From Acidovorax sp. SUPP3334 (GTDB lineage: Bacteria; Pseudomonadota; Gammaproteobacteria; Burkholderiales; Burkholderiaceae_C): a stretch of DNA of 40,135 bases. Both the position numbers and the translations under genes were made by a program. The notes under the pieces were generated by a model. It was not told where the DNA came from and ran no database searches. It worked only from the letters and a program-made list of their open reading frames with translations. Positions 23,260 to 39,409 of this stretch are shown here, piece after piece; position 1 is the stretch's first letter, and each line of letters opens with the position of its first letter. The stretch spans positions 1-40,135 of the forward strand of contig NZ_BQXQ01000039.1 in NCBI RefSeq assembly GCF_030159055.1. Direction: 5' to 3'.

Positions 23260-24131
23260 ATGACCGCCGCGCACACCGCCCCTGACGCGCTATCCGCGCC
23301 GACCCCTGCCGGATCGCCGCCTGCACGCGCGGGCGTTGCGGCCGGGGCGTCCCTCACCGCCCTGGCCTGGATGGCGTTCTTCATGGCGGACGTGCGCGAC
23401 GGGCTCGGCCCGTTCCTCGCCACCTACCTGCAGACCCAGCGCATCGACCAGACGATGATCGGCATCGTGCTGTCCGCCGGGGGGCTCGCCGCCATGGCGG
23501 CCACGCCGCTGGCCGGCGCCTTCGCCGACCGTACCCGCGCCAAGCGGGCGCTGGTGGCGGTCTGCGCGCTGGCGGTGCTGGGCGCCAGCGCCATCGCCTT
23601 CCTGACCCGTTCGCCCAGCCTGCTCGTGCTGTCGCAAGTGCTCACCGGCGCCGCGGGCGCGGTGCTGGCGGCCGCACTGGCCGCCCTCACGCTCGGGCTC
23701 GCGCGAAGCACCGGCCTGCGCCACCAGACCGGCCGCAACGAGGCCTACAGCCATGCCGGCAACATCGTGTCCGCGCTGGGGGCTGCGGCCTTCGCGCACT
23801 GGATGGGCGCGCCCTGGATGCTCGTCGTCATGACCGCCATGGCCGTGGGTGCGCTGGCGTGATGGTGGAGCGCTACGTGCGCGGCAGCGGCCGTTACAAC
23901 ACCGCGCTGGGGCTGGTGATGACGCTGCAGGGCGTGGGCGCGGCAATGAGCCCCGCCGTCGCCAACAGCGTGGTCGGGGCACAAGGGCATTTCGGGCTCG
24001 CCTTCGCCGTGCTGGCGGGCTGCGCGGTGCTGGCATTGCCGGTCTTCTGGCTGGCGCAGCGGATCGCCGGCCACCGCAGCGCGACACCAGCCAAGGCGCA
24101 TTCCGCGCCGCGCCGCATCAAACGAGCTTGA
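23260..24131 (+). pseudogene. MFS transporter broken by an internal deletion
   Basis: The first 200 codons (23260-23862) encode an MFS N half: TM1-6 with GAFADRTRAKRALV after TM2. The frame then ends in TGA at 23860-23862. A second frame starting at 23859 resumes with VERYVRGSGRYNTALGLVMTLQGVGAAMSP, which in this family belongs to the TM10 region. The total is about 290 residues instead of about 400, so roughly 110-130 codons covering TM7-9 are absent and the frame has shifted. One deletion near 23855-23865 explains both. It is the last gene of the putative sigma54 operon and overlaps nagAb tail to tail by 14 bases. Confidence 0.75.
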
Positions 24132-24441
24132 GATACACCGTTCCCTGCTCCACGAGCACGGGGTAGCTGCGCAAGCCCTGCGTGAGCGGTGCGCACAGCG
24201 CGCTGCCGCTGCGCACGTCGAAGCGGCCCTGGTGCAACGGGCATTCGATTTCGTGCCCCTCCAGAAAGCCGTCGCACAGCCGCGCATTGCCGTGGGTGCA
24301 CAGGTTGTCGGTGGCGAACACCTCGCCGTCCACGGTGTAGAGCGCCACGTCGCGGCCCTCGACGGTCACGCCCACCACGTCGTCCTCGGGCAGGTCGGCG
24401 CGCGCGGCCGCCTCGGTCCATCCGGTGTCGATTGCTGGCAT
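24118..24441 (-). CDS. nagAb: Rieske ferredoxin of salicylate 5-hydroxylase
   Basis: This is a 107-residue Rieske [2Fe-2S] ferredoxin with ligands C48-T-H50 and C67-P-L-H70. It carries electrons from the NagAa reductase to the NagGH oxygenase. It is the last gene in the order nagAa-nagG-nagH-nagAb, which follows the Ralstonia U2 nag operon apart from the absence of the naphthalene dioxygenase genes nagAc and nagAd. ATG 24441 follows the small-subunit stop by 14 bases, with a GGAGG nearby. The larger open frame to 24855 on the same strand is a shadow of nagH in another frame. Confidence 0.88.
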
Positions 24442-24455
24442 GAAAGTGCCTCCTT

Positions 24456-24947
24456 TCAGATCGGGTAGATGATGGAATTCGGGATCATTTCGCTGTCGTA
24501 GATGCACTCCTTGCGGGCGAAGCGCAGGCCTTCGGGGGTGCGCACCACCACGTCGAGGTAACGCCCGACGTTGAACACCGTGGACGGCTCCGACAGCTTG
24601 GTGCGAAAGACCGCGTAGTTCGCCTCGCACGCCCAGCGGCCCTCCCCGGCCTGGCGCACGAGCGGCGTGCCGATCACGTGGCGCTGGTAGTACGGGTCGT
24701 GGAACAGCGTCTCGCGGATGCCGTAAATGCGGTCCTTCAGCATGCCCTGGCTGTCGAACGACAACGTGGCCAGCGGCAGGCCGCGCTCGTGGTTCTCGCG
24801 CGGCTGCAGGCGGTAGAGGCAGTCTTCGGTGAAGAAGCCCGGCCACCGGTCCCACTGCGCGGCGTCCAGCGCGGCGGCGTAATCGGCATAGAGCTGCTGC
24901 AGGGCGAAGTAGTCGGCGAATTCGATCGCGGTGGATGGAGCGTTCAT
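24456..24947 (-). CDS. nagH: Salicylate 5-hydroxylase, small oxygenase subunit
   Basis: This is a 163-residue ring-hydroxylating dioxygenase beta subunit (NTF2-like fold). It has the length and features of Nag[11 protein letters not shown], the [18 protein letters not shown] segment and the C-terminal [20 protein letters not shown]. This subunit is structural and has no metal centre. It starts 5 bases after the nagG stop, indicating tight coupling. With NagG it forms the hexameric oxygenase that converts salicylate to gentisate. Nothing unusual was seen. Confidence 0.88.
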
Positions 24948-24952
24948 GGGGA

Positions 24953-26218
24953 TCAGTCCTCCTTTTCCATCACGCTGCGCCAGTACTCGTACATGCCGCG
25001 GATCAGCGTTTCCGTGACCATGTGGTCGGCGTCGCCCACCTCCCGGCCGCCGAGCTCCACCAGCGCGCGATGAAAGGGCTTTTGCTCGAAGCCCTGTTGC
25101 GAGAACTCGATCACCTCGCCATCGTCGGCCGAGACGAAGCCCGCCGGGCCGAACAGGTTGGCCTGGCGCAGGCGGCGCTCGGTCATCTCCTCGGTGTCGT
25201 CCTCGAAGCCGAAGTGCGTCCATTCGAAATCGAACGCATCGTGCCCCACGGGCTGGATGTGGCGCGTGGAGACGCTGTTGACCTGCTGCTGCAGGATCAC
25301 GCTGGGAAACAGCGTGGTCATCACCGCCGTGGGACCGCCCCACCAGGGCTCGGGCACGATGTCGAGAAAGCGGGGGTCTTCCAGCTGCATGCCGGCCTTG
25401 AAGCTGGAGACGTTGGACACGTCGGACTGCTTCTTGGCCTCGCCGCGCGTGGACACCATGGCCGCATGGCGGTGGCGCGCGTCCATTTTCAGCTCCGCCC
25501 TGTTGTCGGCCCGCCAGAGGCCGAAGGTGACGAACCAGGTGTGCAGCAGGCCGGGGTGGTACGGGTCCTTGATGTTCTCCTGCATCAGCTTCCAGTTGCC
25601 CGGAATGCGCTGGCGGTTGTAGCCCAGGATCTTGAGCTTTCGGCCGTTGAACAGGCGGTCGAAATAGCCCAGGATCGCCGGGCCCATGAAGTCCTCCAGC
25701 GACTCCACGCCGTGGTCGAACGAGGCAAATACCACGCCGCCGCGCGTGGCCACCTTGAGCCGCGTCAGGCCGTGCTCCTCCAGCTTGAAATCCGCCGGCA
25801 TGCCGCCGTGGACCTTGCCGTCCTGCTTCACGCCGCGCCGAAACGGCACGCCCTGCAACGCGCCGTCGAGCCGGTAGTTCCACTGGTGGTAGGGGCAGAC
25901 GAACTCCTTGCGGTTGCCATGGCGCTCCCGGCAAAAGCGCATGCCGCGGTGCGCGCACACGTTCTCCACCACGTGCAGCTGCAGGTCCTCGCCGCGCACC
26001 AGGATCACCGAACGTTCGCCGATGGCCGTGCGCTTGAAGTCACCCGGGTTCGGCACCTCGGCCTCCAGGCCCACGTAGCACCAGTGGCTGCGGTAGAAGA
26101 ACCGTTCCAGCTCGCGGCGGTAGATGTCCTCGCTGGTGTAGGCCGCGAAGGGCACGCGGTGCGTGCCGGGGCTTTCCCACGTCGGATGCAATGGGAAGAC
26201 GGGATGGGGCGTACTCAT
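24953..26218 (-). CDS. nagG: Salicylate 5-hydroxylase, large oxygenase subunit
   Basis: This is a 421-residue Rieske non-haem iron oxygenase alpha subunit. Rieske ligands are C88-A-H90 and C108-P-Y-H111. The mononuclear iron site shows D218, H221 and H226 in [13 protein letters not shown], which is D-x2-H-x4-H. The sequence is very close to Ralstonia U2 NagG as I recall it ([29 protein letters not shown]), so the substrate is most likely salicylate, hydroxylated to gentisate. Anthranilate-type enzymes (AndAc) are the nearest alternative. CAGGAG precedes ATG 26218. A strong GC hairpin lies between it and nagAa. Confidence 0.9.
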
Positions 26219-26267
26219 GTCGTTGTCTCCTGGGGGCTTGTCTCTGTCGTGGAACGGTGTGCGGGAA

Positions 26268-26285
26268 GGGGGCATGCACGCCCCC
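26268..26285 (-). terminator. GC hairpin between nagAa and nagG
   Basis: GGGGGC (26268-26273) and GCCCCC (26280-26285) pair perfectly around a 6-base loop, four bases past the nagAa stop. There is no U-run after it, so it is more likely a partial attenuator or an mRNA-stabilising element that sets reductase and oxygenase levels than a full terminator. Confidence 0.4.
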
Positions 26286-26288
26286 GCT

Positions 26289-27287
26289 TCAAGGCGTGCT
26301 GGCATAGAAAGCGTCGGCATAGAGATGCTCGGCGGCGACGCCACGCTGGCGCGCCAGCAGCGACACGGCCTCCACCATGGGCGGCGATCCGCACAGGTAG
26401 GCGCGCCAGCCTTCCAGCGTGGGCCAGTCCTGCGCGATCGCGTCGGTGACCAGGCCCGTGCGCTGGCCCGGCGCCGCATCGGCCGCGGCCACCACTGCAT
26501 GCACGTGCAGTTGCGGGTGGCGCTGCTGCAGACCGGCCAGCCACTGCAGGCCATAAACATCGCGCGCCGACCGCGCGCCGGCATAGACGTGGATGGGGTT
26601 GGGCATGCCCGATTCCAGCGCGCCACGCACGATGGAGAGGATCGGCGCCAGCCCCGTGCCGCCCGCCACGCAAAGCATGGGCCCCTCGTACTTGCGGCGC
26701 AGGTAGGCCGAGCCCAGCGGCCCGCTCACCCGCACCGCATCGCCCACCGCCAGCACCTGGGCCACATGGGTGGACACCAGCCCGCCATCGACCAGCCGCA
26801 CGTGGAATTCGAGTTCGTCATCGTGCGGCAGCCCGGCCATCGAATACGGCCGCGCCAGGCCCGGGCCGAACTGCAGCTGCGCGTACTGCCCCGGCGAGAA
26901 GTCCAGCGGCTTGGCCGGCTTGAGGCGCAGCCGGCGGATGTCGTGCGTGAGCGTTTCCACGGCCGTCACCGTGGCCTTGAGCGTGCGGGCGGTGTGCACC
27001 ACCACCTCGTCGGGCTCGGGAATCTCGATGGTGCAGGACTCGCTCAACACCGTCTGGCAGGCCATCACGTAATGCGCCTCGCCGCCACCGCCACCCAGGG
27101 GCGGCATGCGCAGCGCCTGGCCGGCATCGATCACCTCGCCCGAGAGCACCTTGCAGCGGCAGGTGCCGCAGCGCCCGGCCATGCAGCTGTACGAAACGGG
27201 GATCTGGTGCTCACGCAGCACTTCCAGCAGGTTGGCGCCCGGTGCCACGGGCAGCACGCGGCCCAGCGGCTCGATATGCAGTTCCAT
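26289..27287 (-). CDS. nagAa: Ferredoxin reductase of salicylate 5-hydroxylase
   Basis: This is a 332-residue flavoprotein. The N-terminal plant-type [2Fe-2S] domain has C35-x4-C40-x2-C43 and C77. The FAD domain follows with RPYSMAG, and the NAD(P) domain with [16 protein letters not shown]. Sequence and layout match NagAa, the NAD(P)H-dependent reductase that in U2 serves both salicylate 5-hydroxylase and naphthalene dioxygenase. It is the first gene of the operon and is read away from nagR. A candidate NagR site lies 57-71 bases upstream of its ATG at 27287. Confidence 0.9.
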
Positions 27288-27343
27288 CGGGGTGTATCAC
27301 TCGCTGTCGTTGTTATGGCCCCGATCATTACCGCGATTCGATA

Positions 27344-27358
27344 ATCAGCTAATAGAAT
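27344..27358 (-). promoter_or_regulatory. Candidate NagR/NahR binding site in the nagAa-nagR intergenic region
   Basis: On the minus strand the site reads ATTCTATTAGCTGAT. Its ends match the NahR box ATTC...TGAT of the same length (recalled as ATTCAnGCTnnTGAT), with differences in the middle. It lies 57-71 bases upstream of the nagAa ATG and 43-57 bases upstream of nagR, so one site could activate nagAa and repress nagR. A direct repeat CATGAATA at 27361-27368 and 27383-27390 lies on the nagR side. Confidence 0.35.
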
Positions 27359-27400
27359 GGCATGAATACATAGCATCACTCCCATGAATAAAGGTGTCCC

Positions 27401-28312
27401 GTGGAACTGGAAGACATCGATCTGAATTTGCTGGTGGTCTTTCAGCAACTGCTCGTCACGCGCAAGGTGTCGCAGGCCGCGGACAACCTGGGCCTGACGC
27501 AACCGGCGGTGAGCAATGCTCTCGCGCGGCTGCGCCGCCTGCTGGGCGACGAGCTTTTCTTGCGCACCGCCCAGGGCATGCAGCCCACGCCCTATGCCAA
27601 CCAGTTGGCGGAGTCGGTGTCGTACGCGCTGGCCATGATCCACGGCGCCCTCAACCACAAGCTGGGGTTCGACCCCGCCACCAGCCGGCGCGTGTTCAAG
27701 GTGGGCATGACGGACATCGGCGAAATCTACTTCCTGCCCCGCCTGCTGGAGCGGCTGGCCCAGGCGGCACCGGGCGTGCGCCTGACCACCGTGCGCAATT
27801 CAGCCACCGACCTGAAGGACGCCATGGAAGCCGGCAAGGTGGACCTGGCCGTGGGCCTGCTGCCGCAGCTCAAGGCCGGCTTCTTCCAGCGCCGGCTGTT
27901 CCGCCAGCCCTACGTGTGTCTGTTCCGCGAGGGCCACCCGCTGCAAAAGCGCCGGCGCATCGGGCTGGCGGAGTTTTCAAAAGCGGAGCACGTGGTGGTC
28001 GTCTCCGAAGGCACGGGCCACGGCAAGGTGGACGAACTGCTGGAGCGCATGGGCGTGGCGCGCGACGTGCGGCTCACCGTGCCGCATTTCGTCGCCATCG
28101 GCCACATCCTGCAGGCCACGCAAATGGTCGCCACCGTGCCCGAAAAAATGGCGCAAAGCATGGCCGAGCCCTTCGGCCTGGCGTATGCGCCCCACCCGGC
28201 CAAATTGCCGCAGGTGGCGATCAATTTGTTCTGGCATACGAAGTACCACCGGGACCCGGGGAATCAGTGGCTGCGGGGGGTGTTGGTGGAGATGTTTGCG
28301 GAAGGGGAGTGA
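27401..28312 (+). CDS. nagR: LysR-type activator of salicylate catabolism
   Basis: This is a 303-residue protein very like NahR/NagR: MELEDIDLNLLVVFQQLL at the start, LGLTQPAVSNAL in the recognition helix, RVFKVGMTDIGEIYFLPRL, VDLAVGLLPQLKAGFFQRRLF, VPHFVAIGHILQAT, and INLFWHTKYH near the C terminus. These proteins bind upstream of nah/nag genes and activate with salicylate as inducer. GTG 27401 is preceded by AAAGG. It is transcribed divergently from nagAa with a 113-base shared control region. Unlike U2, the operon it faces contains only the salicylate hydroxylase genes within this window. Confidence 0.9.
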   Translation: MELEDIDLNLLVVFQQLLVTRKVSQAADNLGLTQPAVSNALARLRRLLGDELFLRTAQGMQPTPYANQLAESVSYALAMIHGALNHKLGFDPATSRRVFKVGMTDIGEIYFLPRLLERLAQAAPGVRLTTVRNSATDLKDAMEAGKVDLAVGLLPQLKAGFFQRRLFRQPYVCLFREGHPLQKRRRIGLAEFSKAEHVVVVSEGTGHGKVDELLERMGVARDVRLTVPHFVAIGHILQATQMVATVPEKMAQSMAEPFGLAYAPHPAKLPQVAINLFWHTKYHRDPGNQWLRGVLVEMFAEGE

Positions 28313-28840: not shown

Positions 28841-29524
28841 ATGCGATACCCAGGTGGCAAAGGAAAGACGTACCAGCACATCATCAATTTGATGCCCATG
28901 CACCACGTCTATATAGAGTCGCACCTGGGCGGAGGCGCTGTCATGCGCCACAAGCTCGCGGCCGCGAAGAACATCGGCATCGAGGCTGACCCGAGAGCTT
29001 TTGCGACATGGGCGGCTGAGCCACTTGCGGGTGTAGAGGTGGTGTGCACGCGTGCCGAAGACTTTCTCGCCAGCTATCCGTTCCAAGGAGACGAGCTTGT
29101 CTATGTCGATCCGCCGTACCACCCGGCGAAGAGACGGCAAGAACGCGTCTATCGACTGGACTACACCGAAGATGACCATGAGCGGCTCGCCCTTTTGCTG
29201 CGCGAGCTGCCGTGCATGGTCATCTTGTCGGGCTACGCTAACCCCGTCTACTCGAGAGTTCTAGGCGACTGGCGAACCAAGACATTCGAGGCGAAAACTC
29301 ACGTCGATGTTCGGACCGAGACCTTGTGGTTCAACTTCGAGCCGCCCAAGCAACTACATGACAGCCGATACGTCGGCGCCAACTTCCGCGAGCGACAGAC
29401 CGTTCGCCGACGGATGGACCGGTTACAGGAACGCATTGCACGCATGGACATCGTCGAACGAGCGGCGTTCATGCAGTGGCTACACGAGGCCTACCCAATG
29501 CCCCATAGGAGTTTCTCGCCATGA
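28841..29524 (+). CDS. D12-class N6-adenine DNA methyltransferase
   Basis: This is a 227-residue protein. RYPGGKGK at residues 2-9 and ESHLGGGAV (26-34) form the SAM-binding motif of the D12 class, and D90-P-P-Y93 (VYVDPPYHP) is the catalytic motif. It is shorter than Dam-type enzymes (about 270-280), mainly through a reduced target-recognition segment. An in-frame stop at 28823 leaves ATG 28841 as the only ATG, with a weak Shine-Dalgarno. Its stop overlaps the next start (ATGA), so it is coupled to the OGG-like glycosylase. Lower GC than the nag genes. Target sequence unknown; the context suggests a defence or modification role. Confidence 0.82.
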   Translation: MRYPGGKGKTYQHIINLMPMHHVYIESHLGGGAVMRHKLAAAKNIGIEADPRAFATWAAEPLAGVEVVCTRAEDFLASYPFQGDELVYVDPPYHPAKRRQERVYRLDYTEDDHERLALLLRELPCMVILSGYANPVYSRVLGDWRTKTFEAKTHVDVRTETLWFNFEPPKQLHDSRYVGANFRERQTVRRRMDRLQERIARMDIVERAAFMQWLHEAYPMPHRSFSP

Positions 29525-30345
29525 TGCAGACCGCCGCAATCCTTACCCGTACAGGCTCAATCCAGGTCGAGCTGCCCAGCGCAGAAGTCGAGCTCATGGA
29601 CGGGGTTCGATGGGGTTCCGTCGATGCCTTCCCGACGCCGGCGTACTGGGCCTACCAGGTCGTTGCTCGTCGCCTGGTGGGCAAGCCTGCAGGCTACCGG
29701 CTCGGCCGCACGTTGGCCGAAGAGGTGGCTGCGTGCCTTCTGGGTGGTCATGGCATACCGGCGACTGTCGGCCTGGCTGCGTACGACCGCATGCGCGAAC
29801 GAGGCGTCCTGTCGGGCACTCCCGTGAGCGAGGCCGAACTCGAAGCGCTTCTGAAGGAGCCGCTCGATGTTGACGGCAGATCTATCCGGTATCGGTTCGC
29901 TGCTCAAAAGGCACGATATTTGGCAGCGGCGCTGCCGCTCACTCACGCAGCGCCGAGGTTCGAGGCAGGCCGGCAACTGCGCGACTGGCTCTTGGCGGTC
30001 CCAGGCATTGGTCACAAGACGGCGTCTTGGATTGCGCGAAACTGGCTGGACGCGGACGACGTGGCCATCCTCGACATTCACATCATGCGTGTCGGCCAAG
30101 TCATCGGCCTGTTCCCGAAGAACCTGACGGTCGAGCGCCACTACGCCGAGTTGGAGGAGCGCTTCCTCAGCCTGAGCACATTGCTGGACGTCCGCGCGTC
30201 AGAGCTTGATGCGGTCATCTGGTGGGAGATGGCCTCCTCACCTCTGACAGTGCGGCACCTGATCGAGCACCTTCGCGGAAGCGGCGAAGAGGGCCGCGTG
30301 AGAACCCGAAAGCACGTCCAAACCGAACTGGCGCTTGCGCAGTAA
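29521..30345 (+). CDS. OGG-like HhH-GPD DNA glycosylase/lyase
   Basis: This is a 274-residue protein. The helix-hairpin-helix is VPGIGHKTASWIARNW (160-175) with K166 in the position of the catalytic lysine of OGG1, followed by D185 in VAILDIHIM, the conserved aspartate. It should therefore be a bifunctional base-excision enzyme, perhaps for a modified purine. OGG-like proteins of this kind are known as Cap11 in type IV CBASS, where QueC-like (Cap9) and TGT-like (Cap10) partners occur; a QueC-like gene lies nearby on the other strand. It overlaps the D12 methyltransferase by four bases. No iron-sulfur cysteines are seen. Confidence 0.78.
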   Translation: MMQTAAILTRTGSIQVELPSAEVELMDGVRWGSVDAFPTPAYWAYQVVARRLVGKPAGYRLGRTLAEEVAACLLGGHGIPATVGLAAYDRMRERGVLSGTPVSEAELEALLKEPLDVDGRSIRYRFAAQKARYLAAALPLTHAAPRFEAGRQLRDWLLAVPGIGHKTASWIARNWLDADDVAILDIHIMRVGQVIGLFPKNLTVERHYAELEERFLSLSTLLDVRASELDAVIWWEMASSPLTVRHLIEHLRGSGEEGRVRTRKHVQTELALAQ

Positions 30346-30405
30346 AGAACGCTTGTCTCGTAGCGCGCCACTTCGCATGCGGTCTTGCGACCGCGCACGC
30401 GACTA

Positions 30406-31055
30406 GTGTCCCGTCCCGTTATTTTCTGGCATTAATCGTGCATGCCATTGAGGTATGTTGGAACCGGAGATACCGCGATGAGAATGGGCAGACCGAAGGT
30501 CGAGTTGGCGCTCTCTGACGAGGAGCGATCGCAGCTTCAATCCTTTGCCCGCAGCCGCTCGCTGCCTGCTGCGCTGAGCAATCGGGCTCGCATCGTTCTG
30601 AGCAGTGCCGATGGTGAGCCCAACAACGCCATTGCTGAGAGACTGAAGCTGACCAATGCCACGCTCGGCAAGTGGCGCGCCCGGTTCATCGAGCGACGCA
30701 TCCCTGGGCTGTACGACGACGTTCGCCCCGGCAAGCCGCGCACCATCGACGACGAGCGCGTGGCAAGGTTGATCAATACGACGCTGCACACCAAGCCGGC
30801 CGATGGCTTCACGCACTGGAGCGTGCGTACGGTGGCCGCCGAGACGGGCATCTCCAAGTCCAGCGTCGCACGCTACTCACGGACAAGGCCATTCGCCGGG
30901 GATCATTCACCAGCGTCAAGCAACTCGTCCAACGCATCGACCACTTCGTCACCGCCTACAACGCCAACTGCCAACCCTTCAGGTGGACCGCCACCGCAGA
31001 TTCGATACTCGAAAAGCTGCATCGACTTTGCTCACTTATCAGCGGGACAGAACAC
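30406..31055 (+). mobile_element. Internally deleted IS630-family element
   Basis: The left end starts GTGTCCCGTCCCG (from 30406) and the right end is the inverted CGGGACAGAACAC (to 31055), giving imperfect terminal repeats. A TA dinucleotide flanks it on both sides (30404-30405 and 31056-31057), the target duplication typical of IS630. At about 650 bp it is roughly half the normal size, owing to a deletion inside the transposase. The target was CTAG in the stop region of the adjacent QueC-like gene. Confidence 0.85.
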
Positions 31056-31058
31056 TAG
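30478..31058 (+). pseudogene. IS630-family transposase with central deletion
   Basis: The N-terminal part (MRMGRPKVELALSDEER to GISKSSVARY) is the helix-turn-helix region. The frame then breaks near 30875, and a second frame continues with DKAIRRGSFTSVKQLVQRID and ATADSILEKLHRLCSLISGT, the normal C terminus. About 170 residues, including the catalytic Asp residues, are missing, so it cannot transpose on its own. The final TAG spans the right TA target duplication (31056-31058) and is read on the opposite strand as the QueC stop. Confidence 0.85.
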
Positions 31059-31663
31059 CTGCGGCCAGAATACTCAGGGCCAAGCTCTAGGTAGGTCTCG
31101 ACGTACTTGTTGCAGCCGCGACAGTTTCCGCAGGCGATGCTGGCCTTGTGGCAGCTGTGCGACCAGGCGAGCAGGCCAGCGGGAACTCCAGTCGAGCGAA
31201 TGAGTTCGGCCGTGGACATGCCGATGGCCGGGGCGACCACCCTCAGATGACCTTCCTGGTAGGCCATCAGCTCGTCGATCTTCTGGACGAATTCCGGTGT
31301 TCCATCAAGGTGGCTCTCACCGTCGGAGTGGACCGTCCCGATGTAGAGGGTCCGCATTCCTCGCGAGATGGCGCGCATGCTTGCCAAGGTGATGAGCAGC
31401 TGATTGCGGTACGGCCACCAGTCGGAGGTCTGCGCGGCCGCGTCAGGAGGTGCTCCGGCCATGTCGCCGGAGCCGAGCGAACTACAGTCGACCGAAACGA
31501 TTTCGTGTCGAATGCCCAACTCCTCGCACACCTGCGCGGAGGCGCGCTTCTCGGCCTCTGCGGCTAGCTGGCCGTAGTCGAGGGTGATGGCGAGTTCCGG
31601 ACGCTTCCACCAGGCGATGGCGAGGGAGTCCATGCCGCCGGACAGCAGGAGGGCGTATTTCAC
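31055..31663 (-). CDS. QueC-like PP-loop enzyme, cassette copy 1
   Basis: This is a 202-residue member of the 7-cyano-7-deazaguanine synthase (QueC) family. It has the ATP-pyrophosphatase loop SGGMDS (8-13), WWPYRNQ in the P-x-R-N position, and the four zinc cysteines C171, C178, C181 and C184 (CGNCRGC). Where housekeeping QueC has D-C-R (GYPDCRDEF in E. coli), this protein has D120-G-T (HLDGTPEF), and copy 2 shares the change. No queD, queE or queF is nearby, so a role other than queuosine is likely. The ATG overlaps the kinase-fusion stop (ATGA). The TAG stop lies on the edge of the IS630 insertion, but removing the element regenerates the same stop. Confidence 0.85.
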   Translation of the reverse strand: MKYALLLSGGMDSLAIAWWKRPELAITLDYGQLAAEAEKRASAQVCEELGIRHEIVSVDCSSLGSGDMAGAPPDAAAQTSDWWPYRNQLLITLASMRAISRGMRTLYIGTVHSDGESHLDGTPEFVQKIDELMAYQEGHLRVVAPAIGMSTAELIRSTGVPAGLLAWSHSCHKASIACGNCRGCNKYVETYLELGPEYSGRS

Positions 31664-32877
31664 AGCTTCACCGCTTCCCAGAGGGTTGAATACAGCGCTG
31701 TGGTGTAGTCGGTGCAGATAGTGCAGGCCGACCCTTCCATCATCTTCAGGTGCTCGGTGCTCTGGCGTTCGCTGTAGACGATGACGGGCTTACCCAATGC
31801 GCGGGCGTAGCCGATCTCGTAGACGGTGCCCGCATCGAGCCCGTCGGTGATTGCGAACACGATGTCCGAGTCCACAATGGCTTCGAGGTCCTTGCCGACC
31901 ACGTCGTCAGCCGACCCGAGACCGACGTCGTGATAAGGGGAGAAGACCTTGAGCCCAAGGTCGTTCAGGTTTGCTTGCGCCTGTTCGACCATCCAGATCT
32001 GCATGAGGTCAAAGAACGGCCCGGCCAGGTAGACCTGCCGCTGATTTCCAGACAGATAGTCGGCTGAAAGCTCAACCGGCCGGATGTCGTATGCCGCGAG
32101 GTTCTCCTTCGTCGGCAGGCCTCGAGTTTCACAGTAGTAGGCGGTCGCGCGGGAGGCGATGTCCGCTGCCTGTGCCGCGTTCAAGCCTTCATGCATCCAC
32201 CCGTTGGCGAAGTGAGCGACGAAGCAGTCTCCTGAGCCGATTTTCCAGACGCGCTTCGTCCGGTATGCCGGCACCTGGGCGACGCCAGCGGCCGTCCAGA
32301 CGAATGCGCCGCGCGGCCCCATCTTGATGATGACCACCTCCGCCTTCTCCCGAGCCGCCAGGACGGGCGCGATGCCCTCTGGTGAAGCTCCGGGCATGTT
32401 CGCCAGTTGTGAGGCCTCCCACAGGTTCAGGACGAGTGCAAGGTGGGTTGCCGTCGAGCCGTTGGCACCGAATGGTGTCGCCCCTTGAGCGTTCTGGGGG
32501 TCGTAGACGGCCCAGGTGGCATGGACGACGGCGTCACCCTCCAGCATCCCGAAGCGCACCACCTTCTCTTCGGTCAGGCGGATTGGCTCGTGCGGCGTGT
32601 CGGGTACGCCGACGATCTCCGGCACAGCCATGTCGTGGAGGTACTTGAAGGACAAGTCACCATCGACGCGCGTCGGCGCGACGCCAAAGCTATCCAGCCA
32701 CGCAGACTTCTCGTTGATGACGCCCAGCGTCGCATCCGTGGTGTACGAGTGCAGAACCACGGAGGTTCCGGCAGTCGCAATAGCCAGCGCTGCGCGTCCG
32801 GCAGAGCCGAAGACGTCGTACCAGCGAGGATGAACGCAGTATTCGCGGTAGACACCGCCGACAACGTGAATGGTCAT
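31660..32877 (-). CDS. PfkB-type kinase fused to nucleoside 2-deoxyribosyltransferase-like domain, copy 1
   Basis: This is a 405-residue fusion. Residues 1-265 form a ribokinase/PfkB fold: VVGGVYREYC, an NGSTATHLALVLNLWEA segment, and GSGDCF (214-219) with the catalytic Asp. Residues 282-405 match nucleoside 2-deoxyribosyltransferases: VYLAGPFF, VFSPYHDVG, DGLDAGTVYEIGYA with nucleophile candidate E354, and GKPVIVY. The product may phosphorylate a sugar or nucleoside and cleave or swap its glycosidic bond; the substrate is unknown. It is coupled to its neighbours at both ends (TGATG with the small protein, ATGA with the QueC-like gene). The same fusion recurs at 37854-39068. Confidence 0.85.
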   Translation of the reverse strand: MTIHVVGGVYREYCVHPRWYDVFGSAGRAALAIATAGTSVVLHSYTTDATLGVINEKSAWLDSFGVAPTRVDGDLSFKYLHDMAVPEIVGVPDTPHEPIRLTEEKVVRFGMLEGDAVVHATWAVYDPQNAQGATPFGANGSTATHLALVLNLWEASQLANMPGASPEGIAPVLAAREKAEVVIIKMGPRGAFVWTAAGVAQVPAYRTKRVWKIGSGDCFVAHFANGWMHEGLNAAQAADIASRATAYYCETRGLPTKENLAAYDIRPVELSADYLSGNQRQVYLAGPFFDLMQIWMVEQAQANLNDLGLKVFSPYHDVGLGSADDVVGKDLEAIVDSDIVFAITDGLDAGTVYEIGYARALGKPVIVYSERQSTEHLKMMEGSACTICTDYTTALYSTLWEAVKL

Positions 32878-33203
32878 CAGGCGTGCTCGACTCGCACCCT
32901 GACTTGGCCGCTGACGATCTGGAGAACTCTGGCGGTGTAGTCATGGCCCTGTCCGATGCAGTTCCGAAGCTGGGCAGCCTCAGGGCCGGTGAGGCCGCCA
33001 GCGGGCTGGCCGTTACTCAGAACTTGGACAACCACCTGGCCGTTCATCTGAACCACGGCGATGAGAAGCACGTCATTGACGTTCAGGGTTCTGACAACCG
33101 CCGCCTGAGGACTACTGAGCTGCGAGTCGAACCTGAGGGTATCGCAAGGCGAACTGTAGCCAGGACCGCCACCACCAGAACCGCCGCCACCGCTTCCAGA
33201 CAT
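32877..33203 (-). CDS. Small Gly-rich-tailed protein, cassette copy 1
   Basis: This is a 108-residue protein that I do not recognise. It begins MSGSGGGGSGGGGPGYSS, a flexible Gly/Ser tail, and then PCDTL. The remainder looks like a small beta-domain ending NGQPAGGLTGPEAAQLRNC and Y-x-ARV. The homologue at 39086-39409 keeps MSG, a Gly-rich start, a Cys-Asp/Glu-x-L, PAGGL, LR-x-CI-x-x-G and Y-x-ARV. GGAG lies seven bases before ATG 33203. It is the first gene of the cassette and overlaps the kinase-fusion start by one base. It may be a substrate, carrier or sensor for the enzymes encoded after it; this is inference. Confidence 0.7.
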   Translation of the reverse strand: MSGSGGGGSGGGGPGYSSPCDTLRFDSQLSSPQAAVVRTLNVNDVLLIAVVQMNGQVVVQVLSNGQPAGGLTGPEAAQLRNCIGQGHDYTARVLQIVSGQVRVRVEHA

Positions 33204-33374
33204 CGCTCTCTCCCTGAGTCGTTTGTATGGTCGAGCAGGCTAACCAGAAATTCAGCGCCGCGCAAGGCTAGTCCGCACTCTGTGTCGCGCTTGTCGACCC
33301 CGTGTTGGAGGCAGCCCTGTGCTGGCCACCGGGAGCGCAGTGCGATAATCAACGATCCACTGAGAGCAGCCTAG
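33204..33374. promoter_or_regulatory. Divergent control region between cassette 1 and the HD*-PRTase genes
   Basis: 171 bases separate two divergent transcription units. The small-protein Shine-Dalgarno (GGGAG on the minus strand) is clear at its left edge. I see no confident -35/-10 pair or dyad. Both units must start here unless driven from elsewhere. Confidence 0.4.
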
Positions 33375-33782
33375 ATGACCCGCATCGTTACCTCTGACGA
33401 GTTCGTCACGCTCATCCTGGCGGCGCTGAAGCTGCGATACAGAAATGTTGCCCTGCTCGATGCCGATTTGGACCATGGCCTTCAGGAGGCCTACTTCGAC
33501 TTGTCGCTGGCGCAGCATGGGCTGAACGTGGCCTCTAACTTTACGTTCTTCCCAGATCCGCTTCACGGCAATTCCGCCAAGCTCCGCCGCGCCATTCTGT
33601 GGGCCCGAGATCGGGGCTTCCTTGAGGCTAGCCAAGACAGACAAGGCACCAAATACCAGGTGACTATGTCTGACCAGTTAGCGCGGCGTTTTCTGGCGGA
33701 GCCGGCTACAGGTATTGAGTTCTTGAATAGGGTCGCCGCACATTGTTTCCCCACGTTTCAGAATGCCGAAGCGGCGGTCTGA
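33375..33782 (+). CDS. Small protein, possible winged-helix, upstream of HD*-PRTase
   Basis: This is a 135-residue protein that I do not recognise. Residues about 60-100 (SAKLRRAILWARDRGFLEASQDRQGTKYQVT) have the spacing of a helix followed by a wing, so a winged-helix DNA-binding or adaptor role is possible. The N-terminal part is mixed alpha/beta. Its stop (TGA 33780-33782) is one base from the ATG of the large gene, so the two form one operon. It lies across the divergent region from cassette 1 and could regulate it. Confidence 0.55.
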   Translation: MTRIVTSDEFVTLILAALKLRYRNVALLDADLDHGLQEAYFDLSLAQHGLNVASNFTFFPDPLHGNSAKLRRAILWARDRGFLEASQDRQGTKYQVTMSDQLARRFLAEPATGIEFLNRVAAHCFPTFQNAEAAV

Positions 33783-33783
33783 C

Positions 33784-36552
33784 ATGGCTGAGCCGTTGAC
33801 GCTTGCAGCACTGAAGCAGCTTGTTGAGGATCTTGCCGACCAATTCCTCGGAACCTACACCGAGAGCCTCAGAACCTCGGAGGTGGAGCGTGGCAAGGAC
33901 GTCAACGACGCCCTTTGGGGCACCATCTCGTTTACCAAAATCGAGGTCGCACTCCTCGACTCCCCCCTGCTGCAACGGCTGAGGTTCATTCGTCAGCGTG
34001 GTGCCGCTCATTGGGTGTACCCGGGCGCGGTACACACGCGCTTCGAACACTTGCTTGGTTCGATGCATCTTGTGCAATCGATGGCGACAGCGTTGAACCA
34101 GGCGGCTAAGGCCTTGCCTTTTCCTGAGATCGCCGCTCCGCCGATTCAGGCGGCCACGGTGCAGATACTGAGGCTTGCAGTCATGCTGCGCGAAGCTGCA
34201 CAGATGGCGTTTTCACAGGTTTCGGAAGGTGCACTTTCAGACTCACCAGCCCTCGCTACGATTTCGAAGTATCTCTCTGAGGATCTTCGGGCTCAGCTCG
34301 ATGTTCCTGGCGAAGACGTGTCGTTCACCCAAGTCGTGGGCTATTTCCTTGCCCGGTCTCCAGCGGTTAAGCGGTTCTTGGAGCTGGTGGTGGTGCGTGA
34401 GGGGGAGACCTCTTTGCAGTTCACAGGCACGCCGGCAGCGAAGGTTGAAAAAGTAGTCGCGTGCATTTCGCTCGCTATCACCGGTCGCCGGATGGACGAC
34501 AAGCTTCCGCTCGTGCATGAGCTAGTCGCTGGGCCGTTCGATGCTGAGCGGATTGATGCGCTGATGCGGGACGCGCGCTTCGCGGGCTTGCCTACGCTAC
34601 TCGATGAACAGCGGATCCTGCAGAAACTGGCCGTCAAGAAGATGCGACTGGCTGATATGCCTCCGACCATTCTTACTGCCATGAGCGGTGGGGCAGACGA
34701 CGAAGCTTGGTTGTTCGGGATCAACGGGGCAGCGGCAGGAGTCCTCGACGAGCTTCAGCTCGCGAACATGCTTGCAACGGCTAAGGTCTATCAACACTCG
34801 AAGGTTCTCGCAGTTGAGCAGATGCTTCGCTCTGCTATCAGTGCGCTGATGGAGGTTGCTGATGCCGGAGATGTGTTGCGTTTACTGTTCTCCAAATCTG
34901 ACGATGCGTTTCTTTCAATGCGCGCGGCCGATTTGGGTCCTGCGCTTCAGGTCGACGCTCTCGCCGACGAGGGTAGAGCAAATCAGAAGCTTGAGGCCGC
35001 CGCAGAACTGTTGACGTCTCTCCGAGAGCGGCGCCTCTGGGTTCGGGCGTTCCAATTTCCAGAATGGCGTTCGACACTGGATCTCGGCACCGAGTCCTCG
35101 GAAGCTATGGAGGCGATGCGGGCTGACTTTCGACACATCGAGCGCGGGCCTGTATTCATGGGGCACCTCCGTGATGCGGTCCACGAGATATTGAACATGC
35201 TCGGTGAGCGAGCAGTTGATCGGCCCTCACTTGATGTGCTCGTATCCGCGCGCTCGCTTGAACTGACTTCCACTGAAACGGAAGTTGGGCGTGCCTATAT
35301 CATCCACACTTCTAGGAGACCGTACCAGTTTTCGAGGTCACTTTCAGCACGTGACAGTTGGCTCGATCGTTACAACGCTGGTCAGCCGCGCGACTATATT
35401 TTCTGTCCGCCGAGTCTTGCCGATGTCGTCTTTGTTGCCTTCGAGCGAATGGCTCGCATGCGGCATGAAGTTGTCTTGCCGGACGGCTCATTGGAGGCTA
35501 GCAAGCGCGAGCAGTCGAAGATACGCGTCCTGAAAAGGCGTTTGATTTTGCATGGCTACTGGCATCGGACGCCTTACGACATAAGGCCTGAGCCCGAAGC
35601 CTTGAGACAGTTGGTTCTGCCGAGGTTCTTGAGGTCGTTTCATGAACTGCGTACTCGGTATCTAGCCCCAGTTCGCGGAGAGGCTGCCCAGCGTGACCCG
35701 GACATCGAATCCGATACGAGAGATTGGCTGCGCCAGTTCGATGATGAAGACCACGTCAAGTGCGCGCTTCAGCTGCTCTCCAAAATCAAAATGCTCGATC
35801 GGAATGATTTCTATAAGGCGCTCGTTGGATTCGTAGAAGCTAACGCAGAGTTCATCGGTGCATGGGTCGTTCCCTTCGGATCTACGAAAGACAGCGGCAA
35901 CATTCTTGCGTACTTTGCCGGTGACGGGATCGAGAGAGGCCTTGTTACAAGACTCGGAAGCCTCGAGGACTACGCAAAATATGGTGACGGAAGTCCTCTT
36001 ATCTTCGTGGACGATATTGTGGGTTCGGGTGGGCAAGCATGCGACATGCTTGCGAGGTGGCTTGGCCGAGGCGACCTTGGCCGCGATCTTGGCGAGGAAC
36101 GAGAACCGCTTCCGGAAGAGCAAGCCGTTGCGTTGCGTGCGGCACGTGTCGGATTCCTGTTTGTAGCTGGCTGGAACGTGGGGCTTCAAGCGATACGAGA
36201 CATCTGTCCACAGCTCGGCTTGAATGCCACGGTATCAGCGTCACTGACGGATGGCCAGCTTCCATTTGCTTTAGACGTTCTGAGCCAAGCTGGCGGTATT
36301 ACGACAGTCGCAATCACCGCATTCGTTGCTCGCTGCGAAGACATCGGCCGGCAGCTTGTTATGTCGCAGCCACGCGGTGGAGCGCTACCAGCCGAAAAGG
36401 TCGAGCAGCGAAAGCTCGGATACGGCAATCGAGGCATGCTGCTTGTGACGCCCTTCAACACTCCCACCCAGACGCTCACAGCACTCTGGATGGACGGGGA
36501 AGTTGACGGGCAGCCTTGGAAGCCGCTCTTTCCTCGACGGAAGAAGACGTGA
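33784..36552 (+). CDS. Inactivated SAMHD1-like HD domain fused to a phosphoribosyltransferase-like domain
   Basis: This is a 922-residue protein. Residues 45-290 follow SAMHD1/dGTPase-type HD proteins: LDSPLLQRLRFIRQRGAAHWVYPGAVHTRFEH (59-89) and GPFDAERIDALMRDARFAG. But the catalytic segment reads LREAAQMAFSQ (135-145) where active enzymes have HD-x-GHGPFSH, so the metal-binding His-Asp and both later His residues are replaced. A long helical middle follows. Residues 740-751 (IFVDDIVGSGGQ) form a PRPP-binding-type phosphoribosyltransferase loop. An alternative ATG at 33763 overlaps the upstream gene. A defence-type sensor (dead HD) with a PRTase effector is one reading. Codon use is AT-richer than the chromosome. 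Confidence 0.75.
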   Translation: MAEPLTLAALKQLVEDLADQFLGTYTESLRTSEVERGKDVNDALWGTISFTKIEVALLDSPLLQRLRFIRQRGAAHWVYPGAVHTRFEHLLGSMHLVQSMATALNQAAKALPFPEIAAPPIQAATVQILRLAVMLREAAQMAFSQVSEGALSDSPALATISKYLSEDLRAQLDVPGEDVSFTQVVGYFLARSPAVKRFLELVVVREGETSLQFTGTPAAKVEKVVACISLAITGRRMDDKLPLVHELVAGPFDAERIDALMRDARFAGLPTLLDEQRILQKLAVKKMRLADMPPTILTAMSGGADDEAWLFGINGAAAGVLDELQLANMLATAKVYQHSKVLAVEQMLRSAISALMEVADAGDVLRLLFSKSDDAFLSMRAADLGPALQVDALADEGRANQKLEAAAELLTSLRERRLWVRAFQFPEWRSTLDLGTESSEAMEAMRADFRHIERGPVFMGHLRDAVHEILNMLGERAVDRPSLDVLVSARSLELTSTETEVGRAYIIHTSRRPYQFSRSLSARDSWLDRYNAGQPRDYIFCPPSLADVVFVAFERMARMRHEVVLPDGSLEASKREQSKIRVLKRRLILHGYWHRTPYDIRPEPEALRQLVLPRFLRSFHELRTRYLAPVRGEAAQRDPDIESDTRDWLRQFDDEDHVKCALQLLSKIKMLDRNDFYKALVGFVEANAEFIGAWVVPFGSTKDSGNILAYFAGDGIERGLVTRLGSLEDYAKYGDGSPLIFVDDIVGSGGQACDMLARWLGRGDLGRDLGEEREPLPEEQAVALRAARVGFLFVAGWNVGLQAIRDICPQLGLNATVSASLTDGQLPFALDVLSQAGGITTVAITAFVARCEDIGRQLVMSQPRGGALPAEKVEQRKLGYGNRGMLLVTPFNTPTQTLTALWMDGEVDGQPWKPLFPRRKKT

Positions 36553-36602
36553 AGTCTGCAGACACCGTCGCACCAGGTCGGCCACGTAACGACGATCTGA
36601 CG

Positions 36603-37277
36603 CTAAGTGCGCGCGCCCACGAAGGCTGCGCCGACGCCTACCAGTGACGCGCCCGGAATCAGTTGACTCGCCCACGGCTCGCCGGTGACGCCCATCGGCG
36701 AGAAGTTCAGCGACAACGCCTCCGCAGCCATTGAAAACGTCCCCAAGAGGACGCCGGCATCGCGCCACACCAAGCTTGCGGCGTCCTCGTACTTCGATGC
36801 GGTCAAACCAGGCTCAGCCACGAAAAGAAGCAGCGTGCCGGCAGGAGCGTCGATGACTTCGTACATGGCCGTGCGCAGGGCCGACGGCTTGAGAGATGTG
36901 TCAAGCTTGCTCAGCCCATGTTCGAAAGGGTCGTAGCGACACAGTGCTGCATCGCCCGGTCGGTGCACCACCACGTGAACCGGGTGAATGGCACCTGCTG
37001 AAGGCGCGGGCCGGTGGGACTGGGCGAACGCCAGCGGTCCTGCAAGCGCGGCTCTGACTCGGCATGTGAGTTGCATGAGCGCACCCAGTTGGTCATCCAA
37101 CAGAGGAGCAAACGAATATCGAGTTCTGCGCGCTTCGACGACTACTGCAAAAGGGGGCGTGTCTGGGATCATGCCCTCGGGCAGCGGGACGAACTGCGCC
37201 TCCGGCCAGACGACAGGCCTATATGGCTTGGGCTCAGACCGTGGGCGTGGGTTCTTGAGGTCCGGCCATTCCATCAT
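36603..37277 (-). CDS. SagB/ThcOx-like nitroreductase-family oxidoreductase
   Basis: This is a 224-residue protein. RPAPSAGAIHPVHVVVHR with the following CRYDPFEHGLSKLD is the signature of SagB-type FMN oxidoreductases, which in RiPP pathways oxidise azolines to azoles. The C-terminal SMAAEALSLNFSPMGVTG also fits the nitroreductase fold. ATG 37277 has GAGG six bases upstream and lies inside the QueC-like gene, a 44-base overlap. So it is the fourth gene of cassette 2; cassette 1 has no counterpart. It is convergent with the HD*-PRTase gene. The link to QueC and nucleoside enzymes is unusual; its substrate is unknown. Confidence 0.75.
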   Translation of the reverse strand: MMEWPDLKNPRPRSEPKPYRPVVWPEAQFVPLPEGMIPDTPPFAVVVEARRTRYSFAPLLDDQLGALMQLTCRVRAALAGPLAFAQSHRPAPSAGAIHPVHVVVHRPGDAALCRYDPFEHGLSKLDTSLKPSALRTAMYEVIDAPAGTLLLFVAEPGLTASKYEDAASLVWRDAGVLLGTFSMAAEALSLNFSPMGVTGEPWASQLIPGASLVGVGAAFVGART

Positions 37278-37857
37278 TCAGATCCTCGAGGACTTTGAAG
37301 TACTTGTTGCACCCGCGGCAGTTACCGCACGGAACGTGGGACTTGTGGCAGCTGTGCGCCAACGCCAGCTCCGTGTCCGGGACTCCGGAGAGGCGTATCA
37401 GCTCAAGAGTACTTAGCTTGATCGCCGGCGCCGAGACGGTCATGCCCCCTTCCTGAAGCGCTAACAGGCCGCTCAATGTCTCCACGAACTCAGGCGTGCC
37501 ATCGCGATGGAAGCCGTCCGAGAGGACGGAACCGATGTACAACTTTTCAACGCCCAGGCTGATCGCTTTCATCGCCGCGAAAGTCAACAGCATCTGGTTG
37601 CGGTACGGCCACCAGTCACTGGCCGGAGCGTGTTCGTTCGCGGTCGCGCCCGCCATGTCCCCGGAGCCGAGCGACCGACAGTCGACCTTCGCGACATGGT
37701 GGGCCATGCCGAGGCGTTGGGCAACCGCCGTGGCGGCTGTTATCTCCGCTCGGGCTGGCAACTGACCGTAGTCGATGGTAATGGCCACGCTCGGACGCTT
37801 CCACCAGGCAATTGCGATCGAGTCCATGCCACCTGACAGGAGGAGCGCCGTCTTCAT
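37234..37857 (-). CDS. QueC-like PP-loop enzyme, cassette copy 2
   Basis: This is a 207-residue protein with the SGGMDS PP-loop (8-13), DWWPYRNQ, D119-G-T-P-E-F in place of the QueC D-C-R segment, and zinc cysteines C170, C177, C180 and C183. It is clearly homologous to copy 1 along its length but far from identical, which argues against a recent duplication. ATG 37857 overlaps the kinase-fusion stop (ATGA), the same junction as in copy 1. The C terminus extends past copy 1 by a Pro-rich tail that overlaps the nitroreductase start. Confidence 0.85.
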   Translation of the reverse strand: MKTALLLSGGMDSIAIAWWKRPSVAITIDYGQLPARAEITAATAVAQRLGMAHHVAKVDCRSLGSGDMAGATANEHAPASDWWPYRNQMLLTFAAMKAISLGVEKLYIGSVLSDGFHRDGTPEFVETLSGLLALQEGGMTVSAPAIKLSTLELIRLSGVPDTELALAHSCHKSHVPCGNCRGCNKYFKVLEDLNDGMAGPQEPTPTV

Positions 37858-39068
37858 AGGGCCATCGCCGTCCACAGCGCGCGGTAGATGGATGTCACGT
37901 AGTCCTTGCAGAGCACGCAGTTAGAGCCTTCAAACATCTTCAGATCTTCGCTCAACTCGTTCTCGCAATAGACCACGACAGGCTTTTTCTGCGCGCGCGC
38001 GTATCCGATCTCGTAGACGGTGCCAGAGTCCAGACCATCTCCAATGGCAAATACAAGGTCTGAAATGTGAATGCCCTCAAGGTCGAGCTGCACGACATCG
38101 TCGGCACTCCCGTAGCCAACGTCGTGGTACGGCGAAAACACGTCCAGCCCAAACCCCCTCAGGCTTTCACGAGCCTGTTCGACGAGCCACAACTGTGCGA
38201 GCGTGAATATCGGGCTGGCCAGATAGACGCGAGGCCGCCTTCCAGCTTTCCAGCGCTCGGATGCTTGGACAGGCTTTGCCGGAAAGGCATCAAGCATTGC
38301 GGGCGTGGGGAACCCGCGCCCATCGCAGTAGACCGCAGTCGCCAGCGAGGCGCGGAGCGCGCTATCGGCGGCCGAACGACCCTGCGTCGCCCACCCCAAC
38401 GCGAAGTGGGCAGCAAAGACATCTCCTGAGCCGATCTTCCACACGGTATCAGTTTGGAATGCAGGTACTTCCGACCAATCGTCGCCGTCGAGAACGAGTG
38501 CACCGAGGGGGCCGCGCTTCAGGACGACCCCGCGAGCCCCGTGGAGCGCGCGCGTTGCGTGAGCCAGCTCATAAGGAGTCGTGTCGCCTCCCAGTCCCGT
38601 GGTTGCCCGCGCCTCGCGTTCGTTGAGCACAACGAACAGCTCATCTGCTGATGAGCTGTTCGAGTTGAACGGGCTACCGGTCAAGCCGCCTTGCGGGTCG
38701 TAGACAACGCGCTTGCCGTGCACGACTGCATCGCCTTCCAGGATGCCGAAGCGCAGGATGGCCTCCGATTTCACGACAATGGGGGTGTAGGTTGATCTCG
38801 GGCCTTCGACTTCCGGGCGATGGAGAGCGTGCGTGTAGCGGAAAGAGCAGGTCGCCGCCACGGCAGTCACGACCAGGCGCGTGCCTTCGAGCGCGCAGCG
38901 TGCTTCGAGGACGGGCGCAGTGCGTGCATCGGCGTAGCAATGCAGGGTGCGCTTGACGTCGTCCGCCATGGCAGCGATGGCCGAAGCGGCTCGACCGGCT
39001 GAGCCGAAGACTTCGTGCCAGGATGGTCTCAGGCACCATTCTTCGTAGGCGCCGCCCACCACGTCCAT
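37854..39068 (-). CDS. PfkB-type kinase fused to nucleoside 2-deoxyribosyltransferase-like domain, copy 2
   Basis: This is a 404-residue fusion with the same domain order as copy 1. The kinase part has VVGGAYEEWC, FGSAGRAASAIAAM and WKIGSGDVFAAHF. The transferase part has VYLASPIF, VFSPYHDVGYGSADDVV, DGLDSGTVYEIGYARA and PVVVYCE. ATG 39068 is chosen because GAGG lies eight bases upstream and the product then aligns with copy 1; a GTG at 39086 overlapping the small-protein stop is an alternative. Both domains keep their catalytic residues. It is followed by the QueC-like gene with an ATGA overlap. Confidence 0.85.
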   Translation of the reverse strand: MDVVGGAYEEWCLRPSWHEVFGSAGRAASAIAAMADDVKRTLHCYADARTAPVLEARCALEGTRLVVTAVAATCSFRYTHALHRPEVEGPRSTYTPIVVKSEAILRFGILEGDAVVHGKRVVYDPQGGLTGSPFNSNSSSADELFVVLNEREARATTGLGGDTTPYELAHATRALHGARGVVLKRGPLGALVLDGDDWSEVPAFQTDTVWKIGSGDVFAAHFALGWATQGRSAADSALRASLATAVYCDGRGFPTPAMLDAFPAKPVQASERWKAGRRPRVYLASPIFTLAQLWLVEQARESLRGFGLDVFSPYHDVGYGSADDVVQLDLEGIHISDLVFAIGDGLDSGTVYEIGYARAQKKPVVVYCENELSEDLKMFEGSNCVLCKDYVTSIYRALWTAMAL

Positions 39069-39085
39069 TTTCGCAACCTCGGTCA

Positions 39086-39409
39086 CTATCGAACGGCAGT
39101 CACGCGCACACGAACGAGGGCTTCGCGCTTGGCAGTGACACGAGCTGAGTACAGCGTTCCGCCCTCGATGCACTCACGCAGGCGGCTGATAGCGGGCGAA
39201 GCAAGACCACCCGCAGGCCGACCCCTGAACACGACCTCCACGACCGTCTCGCCGCCATCGCTCGTGGCGAGTCTGACATTAAGGACGTCGCCGGGATTGA
39301 GGTGCTCGACAACCAGTGGCTTGGGTGAGGCGATCAGTGTGTCTATGACCAGTGCTTCGCAGCTGCCGCCGGGGGATATCGGACCGCCCGTACCGTCAAA
39401 TCCGGACAT
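39086..39409 (-). CDS. Small Gly-rich-tailed protein, cassette copy 2
   Basis: This is a 107-residue protein homologous to the product of 32877-33203. It starts MSGFDGTGGPISPGGSCEAL, then HLNPGDVLNVRL (copy 1: TLNVNDVLLIAV), FRGRPAGGLASP and LRECIEGGTLYSARV. GGAG lies at a good distance before ATG 39409. The open frame continues upstream to 39538, but that part lacks homology to copy 1. It is the first gene of cassette 2. As in copy 1, the conserved features are the Gly-rich N terminus, a Cys near residue 17-21 and the PAGGL...ARV core. Function unknown. Confidence 0.7.
   Translation of the reverse strand: MSGFDGTGGPISPGGSCEALVIDTLIASPKPLVVEHLNPGDVLNVRLATSDGGETVVEVVFRGRPAGGLASPAISRLRECIEGGTLYSARVTAKREALVRVRVTAVR

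Follow-up and report, generated by a model that had tools for sequence, protein, structure and literature searches.

Introduction

What do enzymes that act on nucleobases do in the company of a small Gly-rich protein? The question is raised by an island at positions 28841..39409 of the window, the whole stretch of 40,135 nucleotides of Acidovorax sp. SUPP3334 analysed here (contig NZ_BQXQ01000039.1). Open reading frames (ORFs), translations and family scans reveal two cassettes on the minus strand, both in the order SMALL > FUS > QUEC: the small protein (SMALL), a PfkB-type kinase fused to a nucleoside 2-deoxyribosyltransferase-like (NDT) domain (FUS) and a QueC-like enzyme (QUEC). They are accompanied by a D12-type methylase (D12), an OGG-like glycosylase (OGG) and a nitroreductase-like oxidoreductase (NITRO). 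A sequence-only reading had described a nucleobase-centred gene set akin to the accessories of type IV CBASS; all of the genes it named were found at their places, with family support for the enzymes, and the likeness was borne out, with no match to a CD-NTase or to a Cap10/TGT-like protein among the ten island proteins scanned (the scan for CD-NTases was confined to these proteins and did not extend to the rest of the genome).

The answer towards which we lean, with slightly better than even confidence, is a mobile conflict system, most likely anti-phage, built on QueC-type conjugation of a nucleobase to a protein. Nucleobase–protein conjugation (NDG) was described in a 2025 preprint; in the available text it has been demonstrated once, for type IV CBASS, and proposed once, for Qat. 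In the former, Cap9 attaches a deazaguanine to Gly2 of the CD-NTase, which begins MGGS; in the latter, QatB begins MGTS, and defence is lost with a G2D change (PMC13279940 and PMC11996544). Since SMALL begins in a similar way to these Gly-start partners, the simplest reading makes it the acceptor of a third system of this kind.

Conservation and distribution of the gene set

Relatives were sought in a collection of 84,980 genomes, one per species, with an alignment of 19 fusions as the query. The scan yielded at least 250 relatives, the best 80 of which were kept as genome loci; together with 12 of 76 matching plasmid records and the window they form a set of 93 loci, near-duplicates included, which was searched with profiles made from the window proteins. 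The loci were chosen by the fusion, so that FUS is present in all 93 by construction. QUEC was found in 93/93, SMALL in 92/93 (96 matches, the exception being L045), OGG in 87/93, NITRO in 80/93 and D12 in 44/93; some loci end at contig ends, so that counts of absence are upper bounds. Chance grouping is excluded, because these genes recur side by side in dozens of further loci, on plasmids too; the co-occurrence anticipated by the sequence-only reading is thus not peculiar to this genome. Two layouts recur, namely SMALL>FUS>QUEC>NITRO> <OGG <D12 and OGG>SMALL>FUS>QUEC>NITRO.

According to the record titles, the hosts include alpha-, beta- and gammaproteobacteria, Geobacter, Myxococcus/Archangium, Rufibacter, Coraliomargarita, Sphaerochaeta, a melainabacterium, Synechocystis and Halorubrum. 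In the family to which the window's host belongs, 92 of 299 genomes match the fusion at E 0.001, mostly through short kinase-domain matches; full-length matches (>200 bits) occur in only seven of the 299, its own genome included, which makes the spread patchy. Viral contigs, searched with P0004 alone, gave three pattern matches and no relative, and phage records gave one partial NDT match only.

The pairwise distances of the five families, compared over the 75 loci holding all five, correlate with r 0.79–0.94 against a shuffled maximum of 0.18, partly as a result of shared host ancestry; the window, L047, L102, L107, L110, L111 and L126 were left out of this comparison. The correlation fits inheritance as a unit. 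A variant locus on the Agrobacterium MA01 plasmid (L045:6947-11358) is without SMALL, the NDT half of its fusion has diverged, and TIR-domain genes are interspersed with its FUS, OGG and QUEC genes.

The QueC-like enzyme

QUEC-A (31055..31663, minus strand; PF06508, 89.2 bits, cut-off 22) and QUEC-B (37234..37857, minus strand; PF06508, 84.3 bits, cut-off 22) are Cap9/QueC-like proteins of 202–207 residues and putative ATP-dependent ligases. Across 23 aligned QUEC sequences, both window copies included, the SGGxDS loop, the RN pair and the Cys cluster are kept, and C171, H172, C178, C181, G183, C184 and K186 are invariant. The same holds for Y30, G31, Q32 and E38, which form a YGQ(x)5E motif, and the Asp of the YPDC substrate motif is also retained. 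When searched as a single sequence against the PDB, QUEC matches Cap9 best (2.4e-7), followed by QueC (2e-5).

The main text of PMC13329287 delineates a QueC 'Cluster 4' with the C-terminal motif CH(x)5CxxCxGCxK and a YGQ(x)6E motif, the latter one residue longer than that found here, and with a PfkB–NDT neighbour at about 89%; helix–turn–helix neighbours are also mentioned and purine salvage is suggested. The Cys motif and the PfkB–NDT neighbour are shared by the window system, the YGQ motif being present in its form shorter by one residue, and judged by these features QUEC is the same enzyme family as Cluster 4. The fusion adjoins QUEC in both window cassettes, and in the other loci it does so by construction.

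The small protein

SMALL-A (32877..33203, minus strand) consists of a disordered tail starting MSGSGGGG and a folded domain, which also follows the MSGFDGTGG tail of SMALL-B (39086..39409, minus strand). Neither copy matched an NCBIfam model, SMALL-A matched nothing in Pfam or PADLOC, and neither a Pfam scan of 67 family members nor a PDB sequence search with their alignment returned anything credible; these 67 sequences were drawn from the 96 matches by omitting near-duplicates, plasmid copies and the fragment from L060, and the starts in L086, L104, L118 and L125 were placed by hand at M-x-G. The fold is therefore seen only through the direct hhalign comparison with HIRAN and through the AlphaFold model of SMALL-A (mean pLDDT 88, about 95 for residues 21–108 and about 60 for the tail), comparison of which identifies the core as a HIRAN fold. 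On this model, SMALL is a HIRAN-fold protein, so that the small Gly-rich protein of the sequence-only reading keeps its Gly-rich tail and gains both a fold and a conserved N-terminal tag. HIRAN domains bind DNA and prefer DNA ends, and SMALL is likewise a predicted DNA binder.

The N-terminus, carried on the flexible tail, reads M-small-G in 85 of the 93 distinct SMALL copies; in L076 and L090 the protein begins MSGSGGGF. A HIRAN fold combined with a conserved N-terminal tag makes SMALL probably the substrate of the QueC-like enzyme. On a Halorubrum plasmid (L044:5910-6998), SMALL is 362 residues long, starts MGGGSGG and seems, by eye, to have its HIRAN-like domain repeated.

The fusion and the accessory enzymes

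FUS-A (31660..32877, minus strand) and FUS-B (37854..39068, minus strand, starting with the ATG at 39068; a longer GTG-start ORF reaches 39173) match both PF05014 and PF00294 above the cut-offs. D217, within GSGD, and E354 of the NDT domain are invariant in 20 aligned fusions, and we take them to be catalytic.

The OGG-like HhH DNA glycosylase (29521..30345, plus strand; PF22175, 53.7 bits, cut-off 27) aligns through GIGHKTAS and VAILDIHIMR with GIGYKEAS and VAIIDRHILR of an archaeal Ogg (3fhf), so that the HhH-GPD motif keeps the Lys and the Asp that are catalytic in the archaeal enzyme. The D12-type adenine-N6 methylase precedes it (28841..29524, plus strand; PF02086, 42.1 bits, cut-off 22). 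NITRO, a SagB/nitroreductase-like oxidoreductase and the last gene of cassette B (36603..37277, minus strand; 25.5 bits, cut-off 23.5), matches SagB/CyaGox oxidases, reaching 48 bits against the SagB model TIGR03605, below its cut-off of 78.4.

The double locus of the window

The two cassettes are divergent, as the sequence-only reading had it, but the junctions that it took to be the same are only partly alike: FUS and QUEC overlap by 4 nt in both, while SMALL and FUS share 1 nt in cassette A and, if FUS-B starts at ATG 39068, have 17 nt between them in cassette B. Among the 93 loci, L047 is the nearest to cassette A and OGG (82–87%; 78% for D12), followed mostly by L048–L052. Setting L047 aside, FUS-B and NITRO are closest to L055, L059 and L060 (55–56% and 50–55%, respectively), and for QUEC-B, its pieces in L047 likewise set aside, the nearest relatives are in different loci, among them L065 and L074 (69–70%). 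These differing nearest relatives rule out a recent tandem duplication and indicate that two lineages have come together, sharing one OGG–D12 pair and one NITRO, which cassette A by itself lacks. The composite order is repeated in L047, from an uncultured betaproteobacterium, but cassette B is decayed there: matches were confined to the last 48 residues of FUS-B and to QUEC-B in two pieces, and the phosphoribosyltransferase (PRTase) was matched only at its ends. In L110, L111 and L126 a first cassette is followed by a second SMALL–FUS pair, one QUEC having been found in each; SMALL starts there with MAGK, MAGY, MGGY or MSSK instead of MSGS.

OGG and D12 are convergent to cassette A, with an IS630-type transposase remnant in between (about 30403..30877, plus strand; 83% to a Methylibium IS630) that lies outside the system and is not in L047, where OGG directly follows QUEC. 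Between the cassettes lie a gene for an HD-like (degenerate by eye)/PRTase-CE protein (33763..36552, plus strand; 132.2 bits, cut-off 27) and one for its small partner (33375..33782, plus strand), in which a winged helix is suspected by eye and no Pfam match was obtained. The sequence-only reading had listed the HD/PRTase fusion among the genes around the cassettes; both genes were considered as parts of the system and dropped, being present in 3/93 and 2/93 loci, and they look like passengers. The best PADLOC match of its PRTase half is PRTase_III-A (4.7e-16), and one of the three PRTase loci, L039, matches at 28% identity.

Beside the island, at about 24118-28312, translations read by eye show genes for a Rieske-type ring-hydroxylating dioxygenase together with a LysR-type regulator, which seem to belong to host catabolism. 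The GC content falls from about 0.65–0.70 outside to about 0.55–0.64 at the island.

Proposed mechanism and alternative readings

Under the conjugation reading, removal of Met1 would free the N-terminus of SMALL, with Ser or another small residue at position 2 followed by Gly3, and this end would enter the active site of QUEC. There, a carboxylated nucleobase would be activated by ATP and coupled to the SMALL amine, as Cap9 does on the CD-NTase. FUS may either supply the base from a nucleoside or, once the base is attached, extend it with a sugar(-phosphate). Through its HIRAN domain, tagged SMALL would be brought to DNA ends exposed in invading or damaged DNA; the glycosylase and the oxidoreductase may act with it there, and in the roughly half of loci that have it the methylase may mark self DNA. 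An elaboration to which we give little credence has FUS adding (deoxy)ribose and then phosphate to the protein-bound base, which would give the HIRAN protein a terminal nucleotide. Positioned by the HIRAN domain at a 3' end of invader DNA, or where the glycosylase has left an abasic site, the protein would be joined to that DNA or cap it, its nucleotide serving as a warhead produced by nucleoside enzymes put to a new use.

We infer the defence role from context. The flanks of 20 of the 80 genome loci (112 ORFs, one locus contributing a single ORF) were compared at 1e-10 with 20 canonical queC regions of the same genomes (120 ORFs), and matched 227 PADLOC families versus 85; the models are redundant and the ORFs few, so that the contrast is weak and qualitative. 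TniQ leads the locus flanks (three ORFs), followed by type I methylase/specificity models, dGTPase, TnsB, mad5 and AriA (two each), and mad3 leads around canonical queC (three ORFs), followed by PD-T4-6 and other models (two each). Among the annotated neighbours on plasmids are dGTPases, TIR proteins and multiubiquitin/ThiF operons; plasmids of Citrobacter (L037:11343-12707), Moraxella (L042:8780-10270) and Rhizobium (L046:4391-5758) have a gene annotated as a dGTPase next to the cassette.

Several observations weigh against conjugation as pictured here. The Tyr and Cys of the YPDC motif have become His and Gly in the QUEC pocket, and by profile canonical QueC (1.9e-14) is level with Cap9 (2.1e-13). 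Position 2 of SMALL is mostly Ser rather than Gly, HIRAN is reached from sequence alone with 59–60% probability (hhalign), and SMALL is missing from L045. Shared host ancestry takes its part in the correlated distances, and no PADLOC family matched more than 3/112 or 3/120 ORFs. The identity of the base adds a further point. The window's genome has queC, and queE adjoining queD, and canonical QueC was above the cut-off in 40 of the 50 host genomes checked, out of those of the 80 genome loci; in the other ten it was not. When 14 of the 50 (these ten and four with QueC) were checked for QueE and QueD, five of the ten (L051, L091, L093, L100 and L111) gave no QueD match; the QueE model matched 11 of the 14 weakly (E 0.001) and none above the cut-off, as was also the case in control genomes. 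Unless assemblies are incomplete, as some may be, host-made CDG cannot be the donor everywhere, a point against CDG as the obligate donor. Near the cassette of a Roseivivax plasmid (L041:9501-10040) lies a VUT-family gene whose annotation refers to queuosine salvage, which hints at a deazaguanine base.

That same gene, as a queuosine-precursor transporter, also suits a small-molecule pathway, as PMC13329287 reads the pairing, in which FUS and QUEC would serve nucleoside salvage or the synthesis of a free modified base; SMALL would then be a regulator. PfkB kinases and NDTs are indeed sugar and nucleoside enzymes; however, salvage leaves unexplained a HIRAN protein with a fixed N-terminus in 92/93 loci, a glycosylase in 87/93, and the patchy spread (7/299 family genomes) and plasmid settings, and we regard it as unlikely. 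In a second alternative, the cassette would make a hypermodified DNA base, SMALL guiding the process by binding DNA, and OGG and D12 telling modified from unmodified DNA. QueC-derived bases occur in DNA, HIRAN domains bind it, and a D12 methylase stands in the operon with an HhH glycosylase with aligned catalytic residues. No TGT-type base-exchange enzyme was matched among the ten island proteins scanned, however, and D12 was not found in 49/93 loci, which leaves this epigenetic role improbable. A third alternative is a pathway like those for ribosomally synthesized and post-translationally modified peptides, in which the SagB-like oxidoreductase would act on the Gly/Ser-rich tail while backbone acyl groups would be formed or activated by the QueC-like enzyme. 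Such tails and the SagB/CyaGox matches of NITRO speak for it, but the same ten proteins gave no YcaO match, NITRO was not found in 13/93 loci, and the kinase–NDT fusion and the glycosylase go unexplained; it is very improbable.

If nucleobase-to-protein conjugation is the correct answer, a third gene family with its own putative HIRAN substrate would make NDG a general protein modification in bacterial immunity. It would also provide, in a compact protein of about 108 residues, a substrate suited to mass spectrometry and structural work, and give a role to the kinase–NDT fusion and, within the QueC superfamily, to the Cluster 4 branch.

Comparison with known systems

The sequence-only reading knew of no described system with this gene set. 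The set as a whole was not found in the literature; the QueC-like/fusion pairing, in contrast, is printed as 'Cluster 4' and turned up only in PMC13329287, in a search with the bioRxiv collection and most subscription papers outside its coverage. The terms 'HIRAN', 'glycosylase', 'nitroreductase' and 'small protein' were not found in its main text, nor any of the terms searched for the system in that of PMC13092281 (DefensePredictor), and the available text of PMC10952713 lists QueC only under qatABCD and type IV CBASS.

The core of SMALL shares its fold with the HIRAN domains of HLTF and Rad5 and with a domain of Hachiman HamB, from which it differs as a stand-alone domain of about 90 residues with a Gly/Ser tail and no helicase. 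Like qatABCD, the system combines a QueC-family enzyme with a partner that has a flexible tail and an N-terminal Gly motif. In contrast to QUEC, QatC has about 400 residues, extensions and a remodelled pocket, QatB is helical, and neither the KAP ATPase (QatA) nor TatD (QatD) was matched among the ten island proteins.

The likeness to type IV CBASS comprises a QueC-like ligase of similar size, with Cap9 as the best single-sequence match, and a partner whose Gly/Ser N-terminus begins M-small-G; on a Pseudanabaena plasmid, the cyclase of a CBASS locus whose QueC-like gene places it in type IV begins MGGSGGGF. The fourth gene of that locus was considered as an OGG and dropped, its translation having been judged by eye. 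Cap11 of type IV CBASS is an OGG-like accessory, and such an accessory is also part of the window system. On the other hand, the putative substrate here is a HIRAN protein and not a CD-NTase, a His replaces the Tyr of the pocket, and a kinase–NDT fusion, a nitroreductase and a D12 methylase are present instead.

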